This document shows, one piece after another, positions 35,876 through 45,745 of a stretch of 47,648 nt of DNA; positions within the stretch are counted from its first letter, which is position 1, and each line of letters begins with the position of its first letter. A model generated the notes under the pieces. That model saw only the letters and a list, made by a program, of their open reading frames with translations. It was not told the DNA's origin and made no database searches. The position numbers and the translations under genes are program-made. Source of the DNA: Actinomycetota bacterium (GTDB lineage: Bacteria; Actinomycetota; Geothermincolia; Fen-727; Anoxymicrobiaceae); NCBI GenBank assembly GCA_016927325.1, contig JAFGMY010000102.1, positions 1 to 47,648 on the forward strand. Reading direction: 5' to 3'.

Positions 35876-38353
35876 TTATTCAATATTGTCCGCCGGGAAC
35901 CGGTCCGGTTTGCCTCCGGTTGAGGCGGAGTCTCTTATGCGTTGAATTACGAGCAATAAGAGCGGGACAAACAGATAAATGGAGATTGCCGCGGCGGGCT
36001 CGATTCCTGAGTCGTTGAAAAGCAGTGCCGCCACAAGCCCGGCCGTCATACCGGCCATGCCGGCCGTCAGGTAGCGATAACCCCGCCGCAGCTTCCTGAA
36101 CAGCTTGAATTTCCAGTTGAGCAACAAAGCACCGAAAACAGCCAGAAGCAGAAGCAAGCGCCAGGTGGACACAAAAGCCAGGGACCAGTTGGCGGAGAGT
36201 TTCCGCATTGCCTGGGGAAGAACCGACGATATGCCGGCTTCCCTGAAACGGCTTATGGCCCTCCCTGCGTGAGATGCCTGTTCGGGGAGTATCGACGTGA
36301 CGACGATCAGGACGGCGACGCACAGCAGCACGATTATGCCGGCCGCAAGAATCTTCTTCCAGTTGAGCGGCCTGCCTTCCAGTTTGAGCAACGTAGCCGC
36401 CGAGGCCGCCACCGCGGTAATGAGGCCTCCTACGTTTGCCCCGATTCGCGGGTAGCTGAGGAACAGGCCCATTAATATGAAAACGGTGCAGGTGAAAAGA
36501 TATCGTTTCCAGGATTTATCCAGGGTGTTTTGAAAGACCTCGCACACCAGGCAGGCGAACAACACCGATGAACCTACTATGACCCCCATGTACAGGTTTC
36601 CTATACCGTAGTACCTGCCGGCGATTATTATGTCCGATCCGAAAGCGCTCAAGGTCATCAGGGGCGAGCCCAGGAGGGGGTCGATGAGCGCGGTGAAAAG
36701 GGTTGCGCAGGAGACGAATATCATAGAGACAAACATGCCGTGTCCCGCCGTATCTTTAAAGGGCCTGGTTCCCCCCAGGGAAACAGCGGCAAGGCTGGTC
36801 AGAAGGCATATGCCGATTACCAGTGGAATCGAGCGATAGAGTGCGGCGTTGCCGAAAACCGGGTATATCAGGTATGCGAAGGGGCCGCACAGAACCATCA
36901 GGAGGGCGGTTTTCCAGAAAAGCCCATGGTTATAGACTAGATCGTCACGCAGGAAGACGCACATTATAAACAGTGAAATGAGCACCATGACTGAGATCAC
37001 GTAGAACCGGACCATCGATTTTCTGGTTGTTGATGAGGCAACGACGGTTGTTCTGAACTTCTTCATATCGCCGATATCGGTCGAGGTGGATGTTTCCGAC
37101 AGAGGCCTGCCTTCCATTTTGCCCGGGGTGTCTATGCCGAAATATTCGAGCAGCGTCGGCGCGATATCGAAATTGGAGACCACTCCCGTGCGCCTGGTTG
37201 TCGGCGACGCCAGGAGTGTCCCCGTTTTGAACCCCGGGCCGCTTATCACCAGGGGGGTCAGGAGTTCGCCCCTGGCAAGCATTTCCCGCGAGGGGGTCGG
37301 GGTACATATAATCACCATGTCTTTTGACAAATCCAGGGATTTCAGTATCTCGCCTACAGCCTGGTCGCTGTTTTTAATTGCTGCGCTTCGAGCTTCGGCC
37401 AGGGCCTTATCGGTATAATAGGAACTGCCTTCGTCCACCCTGGAGGTCTGACCGAGATCGATCACGACAAGGTCGGTCCGCGGCAGCAACATCTCGGTTT
37501 CCGAGATTATTCTCTCGTAATTGGTAGTTACGTTCGTGTGTTCGGGGTTCACTCCCGAAAGGTTCGCCGATACATTGCCGATGGGCACGATCCCGTTTTT
37601 ATCCATGGCTATGCAGGACGCTTCCCTGTGGATGGCCACCACGGAAGGATAAGCTTCAATTTCCTCCGGGGAGGGAATAAGGTCATCGGAGTACTCCTGA
37701 TCGCGGGATAGCGTGGTGTCTACGGACCTGGCCGGGGCGAGGGAGTCGGCGTTGCCAAGCAAAGCTGTAACCTTACCTTTGGATTTCAGGGTCTGTCCCA
37801 GGAGTCCCGGTTCGCTGGTCGAATAAAAATTGTCCGAGTTCCTGATCATTTCCTCAATGTATAAATTTACAACCGAACCTTCGGGCGCCTTGCGCCCGGT
37901 CCGGGAAGAGTAGATGTTCCCCGCCTTGATCTGCTCTCCCCTCGGTCCCGTCAGAAGCTCATCGTAGTTGAATGCCAGCCCGGCGTTTGAACCCGCGTTG
38001 GCCCGTCCTCCCGCGCCGATTACCAGGTAACTTCCATTGCCGTAAAAATCGCGTACAAGGCGTGCGTTCATAAGAGCGAAGCCGCCAGTGGAAATGAGTT
38101 TGAATATGTTCGGCGCATCGGTTTCGGAAAGGTCGTCGATGCCGATCCTGTCTATTACGAAAAGAACTGCTTTTCCCTTCCCGCCGGGGTTTTCATCGAC
38201 CGCTGTTCCGGGAACACCCCGGGCTGCGGCCCGGGGTGGTGAAAGAGACATGCTCATCGAAAGCACAATGAAAACAGCAAGAATAAAGACCAGTCGGAAC
38301 TTGTTCTTTCCAGCCGGGCTGATAATGCTTACTCGTGCCGTGGTTTTCTGCAT
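35876..38353 (-). CDS. Alkaline-phosphatase-superfamily-like extracytoplasmic domain fused to a polytopic membrane region
   Basis: Starts MQKTTARVSI (CAT at 38351-38353), TM, 'AVLFVIDRIGIDDLSETDAPNIFKL', 'DIAPTLLEYFGIDTPGKMEGRPLSE', then about 9-10 TM helices. The longer listed ORF (to 39580) reads through sequence antisense to the next gene. Confidence 0.82.
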   Translation of the reverse strand: MQKTTARVSIISPAGKNKFRLVFILAVFIVLSMSMSLSPPRAAARGVPGTAVDENPGGKGKAVLFVIDRIGIDDLSETDAPNIFKLISTGGFALMNARLVRDFYGNGSYLVIGAGGRANAGSNAGLAFNYDELLTGPRGEQIKAGNIYSSRTGRKAPEGSVVNLYIEEMIRNSDNFYSTSEPGLLGQTLKSKGKVTALLGNADSLAPARSVDTTLSRDQEYSDDLIPSPEEIEAYPSVVAIHREASCIAMDKNGIVPIGNVSANLSGVNPEHTNVTTNYERIISETEMLLPRTDLVVIDLGQTSRVDEGSSYYTDKALAEARSAAIKNSDQAVGEILKSLDLSKDMVIICTPTPSREMLARGELLTPLVISGPGFKTGTLLASPTTRRTGVVSNFDIAPTLLEYFGIDTPGKMEGRPLSETSTSTDIGDMKKFRTTVVASSTTRKSMVRFYVISVMVLISLFIMCVFLRDDLVYNHGLFWKTALLMVLCGPFAYLIYPVFGNAALYRSIPLVIGICLLTSLAAVSLGGTRPFKDTAGHGMFVSMIFVSCATLFTALIDPLLGSPLMTLSAFGSDIIIAGRYYGIGNLYMGVIVGSSVLFACLVCEVFQNTLDKSWKRYLFTCTVFILMGLFLSYPRIGANVGGLITAVAASAATLLKLEGRPLNWKKILAAGIIVLLCVAVLIVVTSILPEQASHAGRAISRFREAGISSVLPQAMRKLSANWSLAFVSTWRLLLLLAVFGALLLNWKFKLFRKLRRGYRYLTAGMAGMTAGLVAALLFNDSGIEPAAAISIYLFVPLLLLVIQRIRDSASTGGKPDRFPADNIE

Positions 38354-38584
38354 CTCGTTTCCCTTTGCTGTTCTAAGTGCCGGATAAACATTTCCCATGG
38401 GAGGCTCAGTCAGTGGTAAAAGACCACCACCGGCATACCTGGATAATAATACCAGAAAGCATTTCCCGGTAACCTTTGAGTAACCGATCCACCTCCGGAG
38501 CGCCGGTGGTACCAGTCCTTGACCCGGCTTGATAAGATATACACCTGTTTTCCAGTTTCGCCAAACCGTAATCGGAGGTAACAA

Positions 38585-39502
38585 GTGACAACCGACGAGA
38601 ATTATCTGGTGGTAGTTAATCCTGTGGGACGCGGGGGAAAAGCCCTCGAGCGGGGGACATGGCTGCTTAACAAGCTGCAACACCTCGGCGTTAGCCATGA
38701 AGCAGTATTCACCGAGAAGGCCGGCCATGCCCGCGATCTCGTTTCGAACTGGAGCGATCCCGTGGATACGGTTGTGGCGGTAGGTGGTGACGGGACCGTG
38801 AACGAGGTGATAAACGGGATTATCGACTCTGGACAAAACGGCCGGAAACTCGCAGTGCTTCCAAGCGGCACCGCCGATGATTTCGCCAGAAACATGAAGA
38901 TACCCGACAACAGGGAGAAAGCGTTGAAGGCAATGCTCGGTGGAAGTGATAAGACGATAGACCTGATGCTGGTGAACGACCGCTACGCCAGCGTTACGGT
39001 AGGAATCGGACTGGATGCGGAAATCGCCCACCGCACATACAGGAGTAAAAGGTTTCGCCTTCTGGCCTACTGGTACCACGGTTTGAGCATGCTTTTCAAG
39101 CCCATACCGAGAAGCCCGCTTACAATCGATATCGGAGAGTATCACCTGAGGAACGACTTTGTGCTTATCGTAGCGGGGAACGCGGGTGACTACGGACGGT
39201 ACATGAACATGATTCCCGAAGCCCGGATGGATGATGGAGTGGTAAACCTTGTAACCGCGGACATGATGAACCGGTTCAAGGCCCTTCTTCTTTTTCTGTT
39301 GTCTTTCGCCGCCTGGCACCGATGGGCAAGGGAACTGACGTTTTACTCCGGCACGGAGATAGTGATCGAGTGCATGGAAGATGTTTACGCGCAGTTCGAC
39401 GGCGAGGTGGTAACCTATGACAAGGGCGCGGTGCTGGACATGAGAGTCACGCCGTCGGCTTTGCGGGTCAAGGTTCCCGAACAGAAAAAGAAAGGGAAGT
39501 AA
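38585..39502 (+). CDS. Diacylglycerol/lipid kinase family protein (YegS/BmrU-like)
   Basis: 'YLVVVNPVGRGGKAL', 'VAVGGDGTVNEVINGI', 'LAVLPSGTADDFARNMKIP'; GTG start. Confidence 0.92.
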   Translation: MTTDENYLVVVNPVGRGGKALERGTWLLNKLQHLGVSHEAVFTEKAGHARDLVSNWSDPVDTVVAVGGDGTVNEVINGIIDSGQNGRKLAVLPSGTADDFARNMKIPDNREKALKAMLGGSDKTIDLMLVNDRYASVTVGIGLDAEIAHRTYRSKRFRLLAYWYHGLSMLFKPIPRSPLTIDIGEYHLRNDFVLIVAGNAGDYGRYMNMIPEARMDDGVVNLVTADMMNRFKALLLFLLSFAAWHRWARELTFYSGTEIVIECMEDVYAQFDGEVVTYDKGAVLDMRVTPSALRVKVPEQKKKGK

Positions 39503-39519
39503 TGGAGCACATTCACCAC

Positions 39520-39576
39520 AAGAGCGCATCGGCCGCCCCGTGGCAGGCATCTCCTTTCCCCGGTGCTCTTCTTTTC
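39520..39576 (+). terminator. Candidate hairpin terminator after the lipid kinase gene
   Basis: AAGAG-cg-CATCGG pairs with CCGGTG-CTCTT followed by CTTTTC. Confidence 0.5.
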
Positions 39577-39797
39577 TCATGGTGTTTCGACAAAGGCTTC
39601 CTGCCGGACAGGTTTGCTTATGGTGGATGCTGAAAGTTCCATGACGGCGTCATGGGACAGGGCGGTGAGTGCGGGTGGAGAAGGGGGGACCACCTCGATA
39701 TTAACGCAGTAAGGGGCGCGTTTGAGGGTCCGGGTATCTCCGAAAAAAAAAGGACCCTGCTGCGGGTTCCGGGAGCGGCAATCATGTTGGCAGTGCA

Positions 39798-40696: not shown

Positions 40697-41338
40697 TTAT
40701 TTGACGAGGCCGCTTCTGAGGGCGTGCGCAACCGTCTCTGTACGGTCTTTTGTTCCCAGCTTATCAAAAATGTGGGCGACATGGGTCTTGACCGTCTGCT
40801 CGCTGATCCAGAGCTCCTTGGCGATCTCCTTATTGGTGTTTCCGTCCGCCAGAAGCTGCAATACTTCCATTTCCCTGTCGGAGAGGCCATACTCCCTTGT
40901 CTGGTTCCTGGAGAGTGACACAAATTCTTTCAGGAGTTGAGCGGTTGCTTCGGGATGGAGCACCGCCTTCCCATCGTTGACCGTTACTATCGCGTCAATC
41001 AAATCATCGGTTGAAGAGCTTTTCAGCATATAACCCATGGCTCCGGATTTCACTGCTTCGTATACATAGCCTTCCTGGTCCAGCATCGTTAGTATCAATA
41101 CAGTCATTTTCGGGTATTTCTCCCTTATCTGCTGGGTCGCCTTGAGCCCGTTCATCCCGGGAAGGCTTATGTCCATAAGGATTACGTCGGGTTTTACCTT
41201 TGTGAGCATCTCAAGGGCTTCCTCGGCTGTCTCCGCTTCCGCGATCACGTCTATGGGGGAGCCCTGTTCGAATACGGCCTTCAACCCGTCGCGCACTATC
41301 TTATGGTCATCCACAATCATCGTCTTTACTTTTTTCAA
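40697..41338 (-). CDS. NarL/FixJ-type response regulator
   Basis: REC 'TMIVDDHKIVRDGLKAVF', 'DVILMDISLPGMNGL' plus LuxR HTH 'LSDREMEVLQLLADGNTNKEIAKELWISEQTVKTHVAHIFDKLG'. Confidence 0.95.
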   Translation of the reverse strand: MKKVKTMIVDDHKIVRDGLKAVFEQGSPIDVIAEAETAEEALEMLTKVKPDVILMDISLPGMNGLKATQQIREKYPKMTVLILTMLDQEGYVYEAVKSGAMGYMLKSSSTDDLIDAIVTVNDGKAVLHPEATAQLLKEFVSLSRNQTREYGLSDREMEVLQLLADGNTNKEIAKELWISEQTVKTHVAHIFDKLGTKDRTETVAHALRSGLVK

Positions 41339-42933
41339 TCCAGGTCCTCCAACGCAGTTTTCAGCGGTATATCAAGTGTAACCGCCGTTCCATTGCCCGG
41401 CATCGAATCGATCCTCAAGCGGCCGCCGAGGAGTTCGGCGCGCTCTCTCATTCCGGGAATTCCGAGGTTCCGTGTTTCCCCCTTGACCAGCCTTTCGATA
41501 AAGCCCTTTCCGTCGTCGGATATTGAAAGGAGAAACCTGTCGGGATTAGCGTCGATTTCCACCGTGGTTCGGGCGGCGTCGGCGTGCTTCTCAACGTTGT
41601 TCAGCGCTTCCTGGGTAATCCTGAACAGATTGACGCTGGCGTCCTTCGAAAGAGGCGGCAGCTCGTCGCTCATCAGCAGGCATGTCTGTATATTGTTTCT
41701 CAGCCCGAAGTCCTTGAGCAGGGATTCGAGCGCAATGGGCAGGCCTATATCCTCGAGATAAAGGGGGCGTATTCCGTGAAGGATATCGCGAAGCTCCTTG
41801 ATATTATCGGTAAGGTTTTTCTCGACAACATCGAGTTCTTCTTTCGCGCCGGGGTATTTAGCGGACCATTTCTTTCCCAGAGCCTGGAGCTGATATGATA
41901 TACCAACGAGCGATTGTACTATCCCGTCGTGGATATCAGCGGCCAGTCTGCTCCGTTCTCTTTCCTGGGCGGTTATCATCTGGTGGAGCAGGTGCTGCCT
42001 GATAGCTTCATCCTCCATCACGTTATCGTGCAGACGGGCCCTCATTACCGCTGAAGCCACCTGGTTCGCGATCGTGGAAAGGAGGTCCCACTCTCCTGCC
42101 GAAGAGCCGACGCTGGACCTGCCCCCGATAATTATCGCCCCCAGGTAGTTGCCGCGTTCCACGAGCGGCATAACATAACCATCGGTTATGTCCTCCGGGT
42201 TATTGAAGAGTTTCGTGAGTTTATGCTCCTGAAGATCGCCGAGAAGAAGTGGTTGATTTCCCCTTGAGAAGGTTTCCTTGAGTTTCTGGCTGGTGTTCTG
42301 ATACTTAACATTCCGGGCTTCAGACAGCTGTCCCTCGGGTTTGCCGATATGGGTGAAAAGGTAAAGGGATGGAGCGTCTTTGTCGTGGAGAAGTATCGCG
42401 CAGAAGGGAAGCTCCAGCAGAATAGTGAGCTTCCTGGCGACCCCCCGCAGAAGGTCTTTCACTTCGGTGGCCGACAACAGGAGGTCGGATATCTGTTTGA
42501 GCGTATAGAGTTGAATTCTTTCGATAGTATCTTTTCGCTCTTTAACAAGCCTTTCTCTTGCTTCCGGCTTCAACGCGCTTCTAATGGCATCTATGAGCAC
42601 GGAAGGGCTGAAAGGTTTGGTAATATACTTGACCGCACCGGTGCTCAAACCTCTGAGCTGGTCTTTCTCGGCCACTTTCGCGGTCACCATCACCACCGGA
42701 ATTTCGTTAAGGTCCGGTTTGGAGTTGATGAAGTCGAGGACGTCCCAACCGCTGATCTTGGGGAGCATTATATCGAGTACGACACAGTCGGGAACCTCTT
42801 TCTCCAGCAGATCAATCGCGCTTTCCCCGTCATATGCCTTGAATACGAACATACCTTCGAGTTCGAGGTTCAGCGCGATAATCTTGAGAATTTCCCGATC
42901 GTCTTCGACAACAAGGATTCTTGGCTTGTCCAT
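41335..42933 (-). CDS. REC-GAF-HisKA_3-HATPase sensor kinase
   Basis: N-terminal REC 'RILVVEDDREILKIIALNL...DCVVLDIMLPKISGWDVL'; 'QERERSRLAADIHDGIVQSLVGISYQLQAL' HisKA_3 H-box; HATPase 'SDDGKGF', 'NLGIPGMRERAELLGG'. Confidence 0.93.
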   Translation of the reverse strand: MDKPRILVVEDDREILKIIALNLELEGMFVFKAYDGESAIDLLEKEVPDCVVLDIMLPKISGWDVLDFINSKPDLNEIPVVMVTAKVAEKDQLRGLSTGAVKYITKPFSPSVLIDAIRSALKPEARERLVKERKDTIERIQLYTLKQISDLLLSATEVKDLLRGVARKLTILLELPFCAILLHDKDAPSLYLFTHIGKPEGQLSEARNVKYQNTSQKLKETFSRGNQPLLLGDLQEHKLTKLFNNPEDITDGYVMPLVERGNYLGAIIIGGRSSVGSSAGEWDLLSTIANQVASAVMRARLHDNVMEDEAIRQHLLHQMITAQERERSRLAADIHDGIVQSLVGISYQLQALGKKWSAKYPGAKEELDVVEKNLTDNIKELRDILHGIRPLYLEDIGLPIALESLLKDFGLRNNIQTCLLMSDELPPLSKDASVNLFRITQEALNNVEKHADAARTTVEIDANPDRFLLSISDDGKGFIERLVKGETRNLGIPGMRERAELLGGRLRIDSMPGNGTAVTLDIPLKTALEDLD

Positions 42934-43254
42934 AAGCGGGAACCCCTTCTTCTTTAGAGAGCCATGAACAGTTTAACTGAAAAAACAGGTTCTCTTCCAG
43001 CACTTAATCAAATCCCCTTGACACCAACGTTATTCAAGCAATTCAGCGGAATTCCTGCCTGTAAAACATTAACTTCTCATGTTCCAGAAACTGGTAATCC
43101 AACGGGTTTATCCGCCGTCATGGAAATAATGGGTCCTGGTTCCATACGGTACCCCGGCTTCATCCCGTTGTGGTCTGGCAACCAGGCGCTAACCGTGTTC
43201 GCTTGATCGTGGTTCAATGTTATAATTCTGTCAGATCGAAGGTGGCGATATTCA

Positions 43255-43330
43255 GCGGGAATAGCTCAGTTGGTAGAGCGCAAGCTTCCCAAGCTTGAGG
43301 TCGCGGGTTCGAGCCCCGTTTCCCGCTCCA
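43255..43330 (+). tRNA. tRNA-Gly (anticodon CCC), CCA encoded
   Basis: GCGGGAATAGCTCAGTTGGTAGAGCGCAAGCTTCCCAAGCTTGAGGTCGCGGGTTCGAGCCCCGTTTCCCGCTCCA; stem CAAGC/GCTTG, loop TTCCCAA. Confidence 0.97.
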
Positions 43331-43393
43331 GCCATCGTGCTTAACCCCGGTGTCCCAGGATGTGCAACTTTCACAAAATAGAAATGCACCACA

Positions 43394-43514
43394 TGGCTCC
43401 GGTCATTCTTTCCGTGTAATGAAAACGCAAACCGCAAGACGCGACCCCTTTTTTGGCTCCGGTCATTCTTTCCGTGTAATGAAAACGCAAACCGCAAGAC
43501 GCGACCCCTTTTTT
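43394..43514. repeat. Perfect 60-bp tandem duplication
   Basis: TGGCTCCGGTCATTCTTTCCGTGTAATGAAAACGCAAACCGCAAGACGCGACCCCTTTTT occurs twice head-to-tail with no mismatch. Confidence 0.97.
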
Positions 43515-43519
43515 AATCG

Positions 43520-43540
43520 CGAGCCGTGTTTCCCGCTCCA
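43520..43540 (+). repeat. Partial copy of the tRNA-Gly 3' end
   Basis: CGAGCCGTGTTTCCCGCTCCA versus tRNA 3' end CGAGCCCCGTTTCCCGCTCCA at 43310-43330: 19 of 21 bases match. Confidence 0.85.
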
Positions 43541-43741: not shown

Positions 43742-45745
43742 TCAATCGCAATCGGTTGTTTTTGATAAGATACCACGTATACTGCCAATCATTTCATTGA
43801 AGGCGTGCTTGAGGCCCTGGAACTCTTCACCTGTTTTGACCGGAATCTCGATATCCAGATCTCCCTCCATGACCTGCTCCACAGCAGCGGCGAGTTCATT
43901 AAGGGGATTGGTAATTCTTCTGCGTATGAGGAGGCTCAGAATAAAAAATGAGATTAATACCAATACAACAAACGTTATTGCCATTGTTATTCCGACAAAT
44001 AGAAGCGTATTTTTATATTCTTTATCATAATAATCATTTAGCGACTTCAATTCCTCATGCATTGGCTTGAAATCAAAATTCCACAGCTCCGCCTTGATTG
44101 GCCCTATTTCCATATCGAAGAGATATGAGGCAACAAGGTATTCCCCGCTGAGCCCCAGCTCGGGAAGTCCATTCTCAAAGAGAGCGTAGGTGTTTTTCTC
44201 GTCAATCCGTCCGGAATAAGAATCGTTGTCTCCTTCTTCGATCTCCAGGAGTCTGCCCAGAACTTGAGGCATATTGTCGTAGATAAGGCTTATATCGCTT
44301 GAGACTGCGATCATCGGCTCAGAAACCCTGAGAGCTGGATTTGGTGGTGATACGCTGAAAGCCAGATCCAATCCATACAATCCCGTTTCGATCAAGAATT
44401 CATATATATCGTTTTGCACCTCTTTGGAAGGAGGTATCGTATTTGAGGCCCGAGCTTGAATATCTTCCTGTATAAACGTTTGGAAATCCTCCGTTGTGTC
44501 GGGTAACATATCTTTGGCATACATAATCTTGATAGTCACTTCTCCAAAATAATTATGGCCGGTGCTCAGCATCTCCGCTTCAGTTCTGATAATCCTTTCC
44601 TTGCTTTTATCAATTAACCGCTCTTGAGAGCGCAGGAAGAAAATAAAACTGAAGGCGCTCGATGCTGCATAGACGAGTGCAATTAGGATTGTTGTGTATA
44701 CAAGCACCATCGATTTGGAAGAGCGAGACTTTCTCTTGTTGCTACCCCGGTTTTCAAAGGATTCTTTCTTCCCTGATTCCTGGCCTGTCGACTTCATGAG
44801 GAGTGCATTCAGACTCTGGAGCATTTCATTGAAAGCGATTTTAAGTCCCTCGAATTCTTCTCCACTTCTAATGGGGACTTTGATATCCAGGTCCCCATCC
44901 ATGACTTCTTCCGCCACATCAGACAGCTCGTCTATGGGTTTGGTAATTCTCCTCTTGATCAGCAGGCTCAAGACCAGGAAAGTTATTATCAGTACGAAAA
45001 TTATTGAACCTCCGACAACCGCCGCAAGCGCCAGGTTTGTGTTTCTCTTCTCTTCATCATAGTAGGCGTCAATAGCGGCGAGCTCACCGCTCATGGGCTT
45101 GAATTCAAAACTCCACAAGGTCGATCCGCCTGTTGTTACGTCATCCCTGCCCGAGGTTACAAGGTATTCGTCTTCCATCCCGAATTGAGGAATTCCCTCC
45201 TCGAACAACTTGTATGTATCACCATTTTCTATCATCGCCGAGAGGTCTTCCGGCAAATCTTGGTAGATATACTGATCGTTGTTGGAGAATAGGACGACAG
45301 CTTTCTCGGCGCTGGAATCGGCGGAGGGTGGCGCGGCTTTCACAATTGCCTCCAATCCGAAGAAACCCGCTCCAACAGCTATTTTCAATATATCGTCAAC
45401 CGCCACTTGAAGGGAGGATAAATTGCCTGTCGAAGCCCCTTTCTCGATTTCCTGTTGAACAGCTTCCCGGCCGGGCACAGAAACTCCGGCGATTTCCAGA
45501 AGATCGTTAATAGTCCTGGCCATGAAAATATGGCTTGAAGCTATCATCCTCGCTTCGGATTCTATTAACTTATCTTTGCTGTTATCGATAAGACGGTTTT
45601 GCGAGCGGTTGTAAAGATAGAGGCTCAATATTCCAGAAACCAGCATTACAACTACAACAAGCGCTGTTATCTGGAATACGATTAATGACCTTCCACTCTT
45701 ATATAAGTTACCACTGCTGACTTTGTATTTGCCTTTTTTCTTCAT
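43742..45745 (-). CDS. Membrane protein with tandemly duplicated TM-extracellular sensor-TM-HAMP modules, no output domain
   Basis: Two co-linear halves: 'RLIDNSKDKLIESEARMIASSH' / 'RLIDKSKERIIRTEAEMLSTGH' and 'RRITKPIDELSDVAEEVMDGDLDIKVPIRSGEEFEGLKIAFNEML' / 'RRITNPLNELAAAVEQVMEGDLDIEIPVKTGEEFQGLKHAFNEMI'. Confidence 0.88.
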   Translation of the reverse strand: MKKKGKYKVSSGNLYKSGRSLIVFQITALVVVVMLVSGILSLYLYNRSQNRLIDNSKDKLIESEARMIASSHIFMARTINDLLEIAGVSVPGREAVQQEIEKGASTGNLSSLQVAVDDILKIAVGAGFFGLEAIVKAAPPSADSSAEKAVVLFSNNDQYIYQDLPEDLSAMIENGDTYKLFEEGIPQFGMEDEYLVTSGRDDVTTGGSTLWSFEFKPMSGELAAIDAYYDEEKRNTNLALAAVVGGSIIFVLIITFLVLSLLIKRRITKPIDELSDVAEEVMDGDLDIKVPIRSGEEFEGLKIAFNEMLQSLNALLMKSTGQESGKKESFENRGSNKRKSRSSKSMVLVYTTILIALVYAASSAFSFIFFLRSQERLIDKSKERIIRTEAEMLSTGHNYFGEVTIKIMYAKDMLPDTTEDFQTFIQEDIQARASNTIPPSKEVQNDIYEFLIETGLYGLDLAFSVSPPNPALRVSEPMIAVSSDISLIYDNMPQVLGRLLEIEEGDNDSYSGRIDEKNTYALFENGLPELGLSGEYLVASYLFDMEIGPIKAELWNFDFKPMHEELKSLNDYYDKEYKNTLLFVGITMAITFVVLVLISFFILSLLIRRRITNPLNELAAAVEQVMEGDLDIEIPVKTGEEFQGLKHAFNEMIGSIRGILSKTTDCD

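Follow-up and report, generated by a model that had tools for sequence, protein, structure and literature searches.

HAMP domains are seen as relays linking a sensor covalently to its effector, and both the domains and receptors of this kind act as parallel dimers. The structural prototype is the HAMP domain of Af1503, itself an orphan without a recognisable effector. In the CetA-CetB system, sensing resides in a cytoplasmic PAS protein, and HAMP and MCP are carried by the membrane protein. In mammalian adenylyl cyclases and full-size ABC transporters a membrane module that is homodimeric elsewhere is fused in tandem into a pseudo-heterodimer. The dimeric nature of HAMP bundles has been described (PMC3585426). 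Af1503, from Archaeoglobus fulgidus, is an example of an archaeal receptor family without an effector, in which the HAMP domain is the sole cytosolic part and which is often encoded beside short STAC proteins (PMC4834066). Here we report a bacterial family of effectorless receptors, starting from a gene found in a stretch of 47,648 nucleotides (contig JAFGMY010000102.1 of assembly GCA_016927325.1, family Anoxymicrobiaceae of the Actinomycetota), hereafter referred to as the window.

Domain architecture of the 667-aa protein

The gene is located on the minus strand at window positions 43742–45745 and encodes, from an ATG start, a predicted two-module sCache-HAMP receptor of 667 aa without an effector. 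In each half, two TM helices enclose an extracytoplasmic region of ~200 aa, and the second of them is followed by a HAMP domain; all features are given below with their minus-strand coordinates. In module A, TM1 (45629–45685, residues 21–39), assigned from hydropathy and from a long helix in the model, is followed by the extracytoplasmic sensor (45029–45628, residues 40–239; AlphaFold model with pLDDT 91 and Foldseek matches to WalK, DcuS and CitA sensors), for which AlphaFold and Foldseek point to a Cache/PAS-like core at about residues 133–217, then by TM2 (44972–45028, residues 240–258; hydropathy) and the HAMP domain (44807–44959, residues 263–313; Pfam PF00672). A hydrophilic linker of 25 aa between HAMP-A and TM1-B (44708–44782, residues 322–346), predicted to be disordered with pLDDT <50 at residues 322–343, leads to TM1 of module B (44633–44689, residues 353–371; hydropathy), a second extracytoplasmic sensor (43982–44632, residues 372–588) with a Cache/PAS-like core at about residues 461–561 in the full-length model, TM2 (43925–43981, residues 589–607; hydropathy) and a second HAMP domain (43775–43930, residues 606–657; PF00672), which leaves 10 aa before the stop. 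The halves aligned co-linearly in BLASTP (residues 16–320 against 341–664) with 113/325 identical (35%) and 192/325 similar (59%) aa at an E-value of 2e-69, and both HAMP domains scored above the PF00672 cut-off and showed the two-helix motif. Together with the four TM helices, this confirmed the two complete tandem TM-sensor-TM-HAMP modules proposed in the initial annotation. The lack of an effector domain (kinase, cyclase, GGDEF or MCP), also proposed there, was upheld in Pfam and NCBIfam searches of the protein, NCBIfam returning partial matches to HAMP-bearing kinases far under the cut-off. On the same strand 3' of the stop, up to a kinase gene at 42933, no candidate for a lost effector was found among ORFs of at least 80 aa, the sole such ORF being 81 aa long (43252–43497).

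A model of the single module was built with AlphaFold from an alignment of 63 modules extracted from the family (mean pLDDT 91, pTM 0.77). It shows a long helix rising from the membrane, two short helices, a β-β-α-β-β-β core (E122–127, E139–143, H155–162, E167–170, E183–191 and E198–206) and a long helix passing through the membrane into AS1 and then AS2 of the HAMP domain. The module is thereby modelled as one Cache/PAS-like domain between two helices, followed by a canonical HAMP domain. Foldseek searches with this model gave, with modest scores, WalK and McpB models at the top, followed by WalK, LOV, DctB and DcuS sensors, with CitA also matched; the full-length model retrieved nothing beyond these. 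At the sequence level, no Cache family was among the matches listed by Pfam and NCBIfam for the window protein and the family modules, and HAMP was matched in all 63 modules (PF00672, E up to 0.1). The solved structures matching the family profile, including Af1503 and HtrII, matched essentially in HAMP only, and Af1503 was not among the 50 best Foldseek matches of the module model.

Elsewhere in the window, a perfect 60-bp tandem duplication (two copies, 43394–43514) lies directly after tRNA-Gly(ccc) and is itself followed, at ~43520, by a near copy of the 3' end of this tRNA (cgagccgtgtttcccgctcc, compared with cgagccccgtttcccgctcc in the tRNA). The region 43255–43540, with the duplication and the copied tRNA end, resembles the trace left by a small element at the tRNA. 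Further away, a plausible plus-strand gene of diacylglycerol-kinase-like type (38585–39502) is overlapped by a 1234-aa minus-strand ORF (35876–39580), the true start of which is probably internal.

Size and distribution of the receptor family

The genome to which the window belongs (G000; 2.47 Mb in 178 contigs, 82% complete) contains 38 stretches matching the receptor family, which correspond to ~23 receptor genes, the number being approximate as the bins are fragmented. These comprise ~15 two-module and eight one-module genes, in addition to HAMP-only remnants (L033:7934-8236 and C104:2361-2513). Among the two-module genes, 12 are complete, one is frameshifted (L039) and two are cut by the contig end (L044 and L034:3-1142, the latter recognised as a double because it runs into a second TM1). 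Altogether, 37 of the 43 HAMP domains of this genome belong to the receptor family or its remnants, the remaining six being found in kinases and kinase-like proteins. Of the 31 class genomes, 15 contained relatives, and none were detected outside the class in 347 genomes of the phylum (E 1e-20; E-values are per genome). The named relatives, obtained in a profile search of genome contigs with a 7-row alignment, are all Actinomycetota MAGs and include Ca. Geothermincola and Ca. Solincola.

Among the 63 extracted modules, those in C-terminal position end 0–4 aa past one common point after the HAMP domain, with the exception of the contig-cut double L034:3-1142 (56-aa tail) and the frameshifted L039, and no effector-bearing family member was found in the class. 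Because the members of the alignment set share this end point, the absence of an effector is, as judged from sequence, a trait of the whole family rather than the result of truncation. The architecture had been described correctly in the initial annotation, which overlooked the ~23 paralogues, the one-module members, the repeated two-fold fusion and a co-occurring second family.

This second, distantly related family of effectorless receptors (type II, the family of the window protein being type I) consists of proteins of ~285 aa (L122–L137; e.g. L127:5102-5959, G000 C4) with a divergent HAMP domain and the conserved end LQGLLRSGQKVLxRMDEE. Type II receptors are encoded by single genes, frequent tandem gene pairs and two fused doubles (L134 and L135). 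They were found in 14/14 genomes with type I as compared with 4/16 without (Fisher p 2.2e-5, computed without kinship correction), and in the taxonomic family of the window the same two of nine genomes hold both types. An aldehyde ferredoxin oxidoreductase gene was noted beside the type II gene in L126 (Pfam) and, by the look of the sequence, in L136 and L137.

Origin of the two-module form

One-module and two-module members occur side by side in the family, and no three-module ORF was among the matches listed in the family searches. When the two-module state was mapped on the family tree, six changes between single and double were counted, at least four of them forced by well-supported branches, and a single group of two-module members was recovered in 0% of bootstraps, which argues that the two-module form arose several times. 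In several lineages the A halves and the B halves form mirrored clades. Unfused tandem gene pairs, encountered both in this family (L041 and L063) and in type II (L122–L126 and L128), look like fusion intermediates. The duplication described in the initial annotation holds as regards the co-linearity and 35% identity of the halves of the window protein, but not as a recent in-place event, since these halves are not sisters in the family tree and each groups with different paralogues.

The linker between HAMP-A and TM1-B consists of 21–39 hydrophilic aa in 18/18 doubles, long enough to reach back to the membrane, and the four hydrophobic TM helices of each two-module chain give a parallel topology. 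The full-length two-module model reached a pTM of 0.70; since two independently placed modules would be expected at a pTM of ~0.5, the relative placement of the modules seems to be predicted with some confidence. The dimerisation of such receptors and of HAMP domains, the lack of a three-module ORF among the listed matches, the recurrent fusion, the linkers and the pTM value together favour a putative single-chain pseudo-dimer as the most likely nature of the two-module form, model confidence, linker lengths and two-fold stoichiometry being in agreement with pairing in cis. Two such chains could alternatively associate through their like modules, A–A and B–B. In general, halves taken from one chain and halves taken from different paralogues show about the same degree of likeness, cis A-B similarity barely exceeding trans, so that sequence similarity cannot tell which modules pair. 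A single-chain dimer would offer a simple reading of why HAMP-A leads only to another TM helix and, if it holds, the window protein would combine two distinct sensors as a hetero-pair rather than being a fresh duplicate.

Conservation of the HAMP domain and candidate partners

The HAMP domain is the most conserved part of the family, with a mean pairwise identity of 0.55 as compared with 0.19–0.33 in other regions (63 modules); within G000 alone the corresponding values are 0.56 for HAMP and 0.28 for the sensor. Effector-linked HAMP domains from the same class share a mean pairwise identity of 0.28 in a small set of nine sequences. Such conservation is as would be expected for a common docking or dimer surface, and where no domain follows the HAMP domain, such constraint hints at a partner, or a mixed pairing, that the members have in common. 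It also speaks for a signalling role over that of a passive decoy. Part of the conservation could stem from recent expansion or from selection for mixed dimerisation.

Next to the receptor gene, the window encodes a soluble REC-GAF-HisKA_3-HATPase kinase (41335–42933, minus strand; Pfam) and an adjoining NarL-type response regulator (40697–41338, minus strand; Pfam). Orthologues of this kinase with 52–56% identity occur class-wide, also in genomes free of the receptor, which weakens its case as a dedicated partner. Over ~40 family loci, no conserved gene neighbourhood was found, the neighbours being mostly metabolic (SDR, FAD oxidoreductases) with occasional signalling genes. In one locus, a one-module receptor gene is preceded at 108 nt, on the same strand, by the gene for a REC-PAS-GAF protein without a kinase domain (L043:5946-8380). 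In addition, related proteins of 353–384 aa without a Pfam match are encoded near family genes in two genomes (L028:8323-9396, L044:2134-3288 and L050:11345-12406); they carry an N-terminal Cys-x2-Cys ribbon, which is repeated mid-protein in the two sequences read.

In G000, effectorless membrane sensors are found alongside kinases without membrane sensors, 32 of its 45 kinases having no predicted TM helix. As candidate partners, the soluble PAS/GAF histidine kinases, of which this genome has many, come first, although soluble kinases are frequent in many bacteria, which counts against this hint.

Proposed mode of signalling

The best explanation, which in our judgement is as apt to be right as wrong, is that the window protein is a naturally occurring receptor dimer within one chain, with a candidate partner, encoded by a separate gene, as the recipient of its signal in trans; here we infer both the cis pairing and the trans step. 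Modules A and B of one chain would lie side by side in the membrane, the two different sensor halves feeding one joint four-helix HAMP bundle. Ligand binding on the outside would shift the TM helices and thereby switch the HAMP bundle, the state of which may be read when a cytoplasmic partner encoded by another gene docks on the conserved HAMP. For the effectorless sensors of G000, a separate protein is the probable recipient of the signal. More tentatively, the family may represent a form of bacterial split signalling in which a large array of diverse Cache-HAMP receptors, often single-chain dimers, would act in trans on one shared cytoplasmic partner able to recognise the highly conserved HAMP bundle, HAMP serving as a docking module and not as a covalent relay. 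No relevant account of stand-alone, orphan or single-chain HAMP receptors came up in a literature search. With 37 of 43 HAMP domains effectorless in one genome and HAMP under greater constraint than the sensor, HAMP signalling in trans becomes directly testable, and the single-chain two-module form would provide a natural heterodimeric receptor whose halves can be mutated separately.

An alternative that we consider unlikely is that of co-receptors or modulators, in which family HAMP domains would pair with one another or with the few HAMP-bearing kinases, the mixed receptors tuning or inhibiting these and not driving a dedicated partner. The close likeness of all family HAMP domains makes mixed pairing plausible, the co-occurrence of types I and II is in line with it, and G000 encodes three TM-sensor-TM-HAMP kinases and one Cache-HAMP-PAS protein that could be engaged. 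However, the HAMP domains of effector-bearing proteins are strongly unlike those of the family, ~23 modulators would be in large excess over the few HAMP kinases and a covalent pair would oppose mixed pairing.

The two MCPs of G000 (L120:3102-4436 and L121:4737-6032; 431–444 aa) show a short TM hairpin but lack a sensor domain, and the two-module gene L047 follows a HAMP-MCP gene of the same strand at a distance of ~105 nt. These features would suit a split chemoreceptor, in which effectorless sensors feed sensorless TM-hairpin MCPs through membrane contacts as in rhodopsin-HtrII or CetA-CetB. Yet MCPs were found in each of the 30 class genomes searched, whether or not these have the receptor family, so that they carry zero co-occurrence signal, and G000 has the most family genes but only these two MCPs; we therefore regard this reading as improbable. 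MCPs of ~430–445 aa occur in most genomes of the class.

A slightly slimmer chance is given to the receptors being decoys, ligand sinks or relics, i.e. formerly complete receptors now left without their effector and either binding ligand or decaying. The HAMP-only remnants and the frameshifted L039 do indicate that copies are born and lost, but HAMP is the most conserved part across old paralogues, the end point is common and an effector-bearing family member was not found in the class. Finally, the truncated allele or assembly artefact of an ordinary kinase or chemoreceptor, raised in the initial annotation as a frameshift or as homologues all carrying an effector, has nothing in its favour besides the missing effector and is rejected, the same architecture and end point recurring in dozens of genes from 15 separately assembled genomes and no effector frame lying downstream among ORFs of at least 80 aa.

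Comparison with known receptors

The family shares its TM-Cache/PAS-TM-HAMP input half with WalK-type sensor histidine kinases and McpB-type chemoreceptors, its top Foldseek matches, but these continue into a kinase or MCP signalling domain whereas the present proteins stop after HAMP. Should the receptors signal in trans, sensing and output would reside on separate proteins as in CetA-CetB, the bipartite energy taxis receptor of Campylobacter (PMC2628428); unlike in that system, the membrane protein here holds only the sensor and HAMP. With mammalian adenylyl cyclases and ABC transporters, which are unrelated to the family in sequence and function, only the principle of tandem fusion is alike.

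As in Af1503, the receptors consist of an extracellular sensor, TM helices and HAMP as the only cytosolic part, without a recognisable effector, the sequence match between the two being confined to HAMP residues (family profile against PDB chains). In contrast to the Af1503 family, no STAC-like neighbour accompanies the present receptors, a short ORF with the LGPx(x)A motif being found within 250 nt downstream in 0/45 family genes by a motif test that a divergent STAC could escape. Furthermore, Af1503 is archaeal, whereas the present family is bacterial (Actinomycetota), with ~23 copies that are often fused in twos. Af1503 is thus the closest precedent, to which the present family adds a bacterial host, expansion and repeated two-fold fusion.
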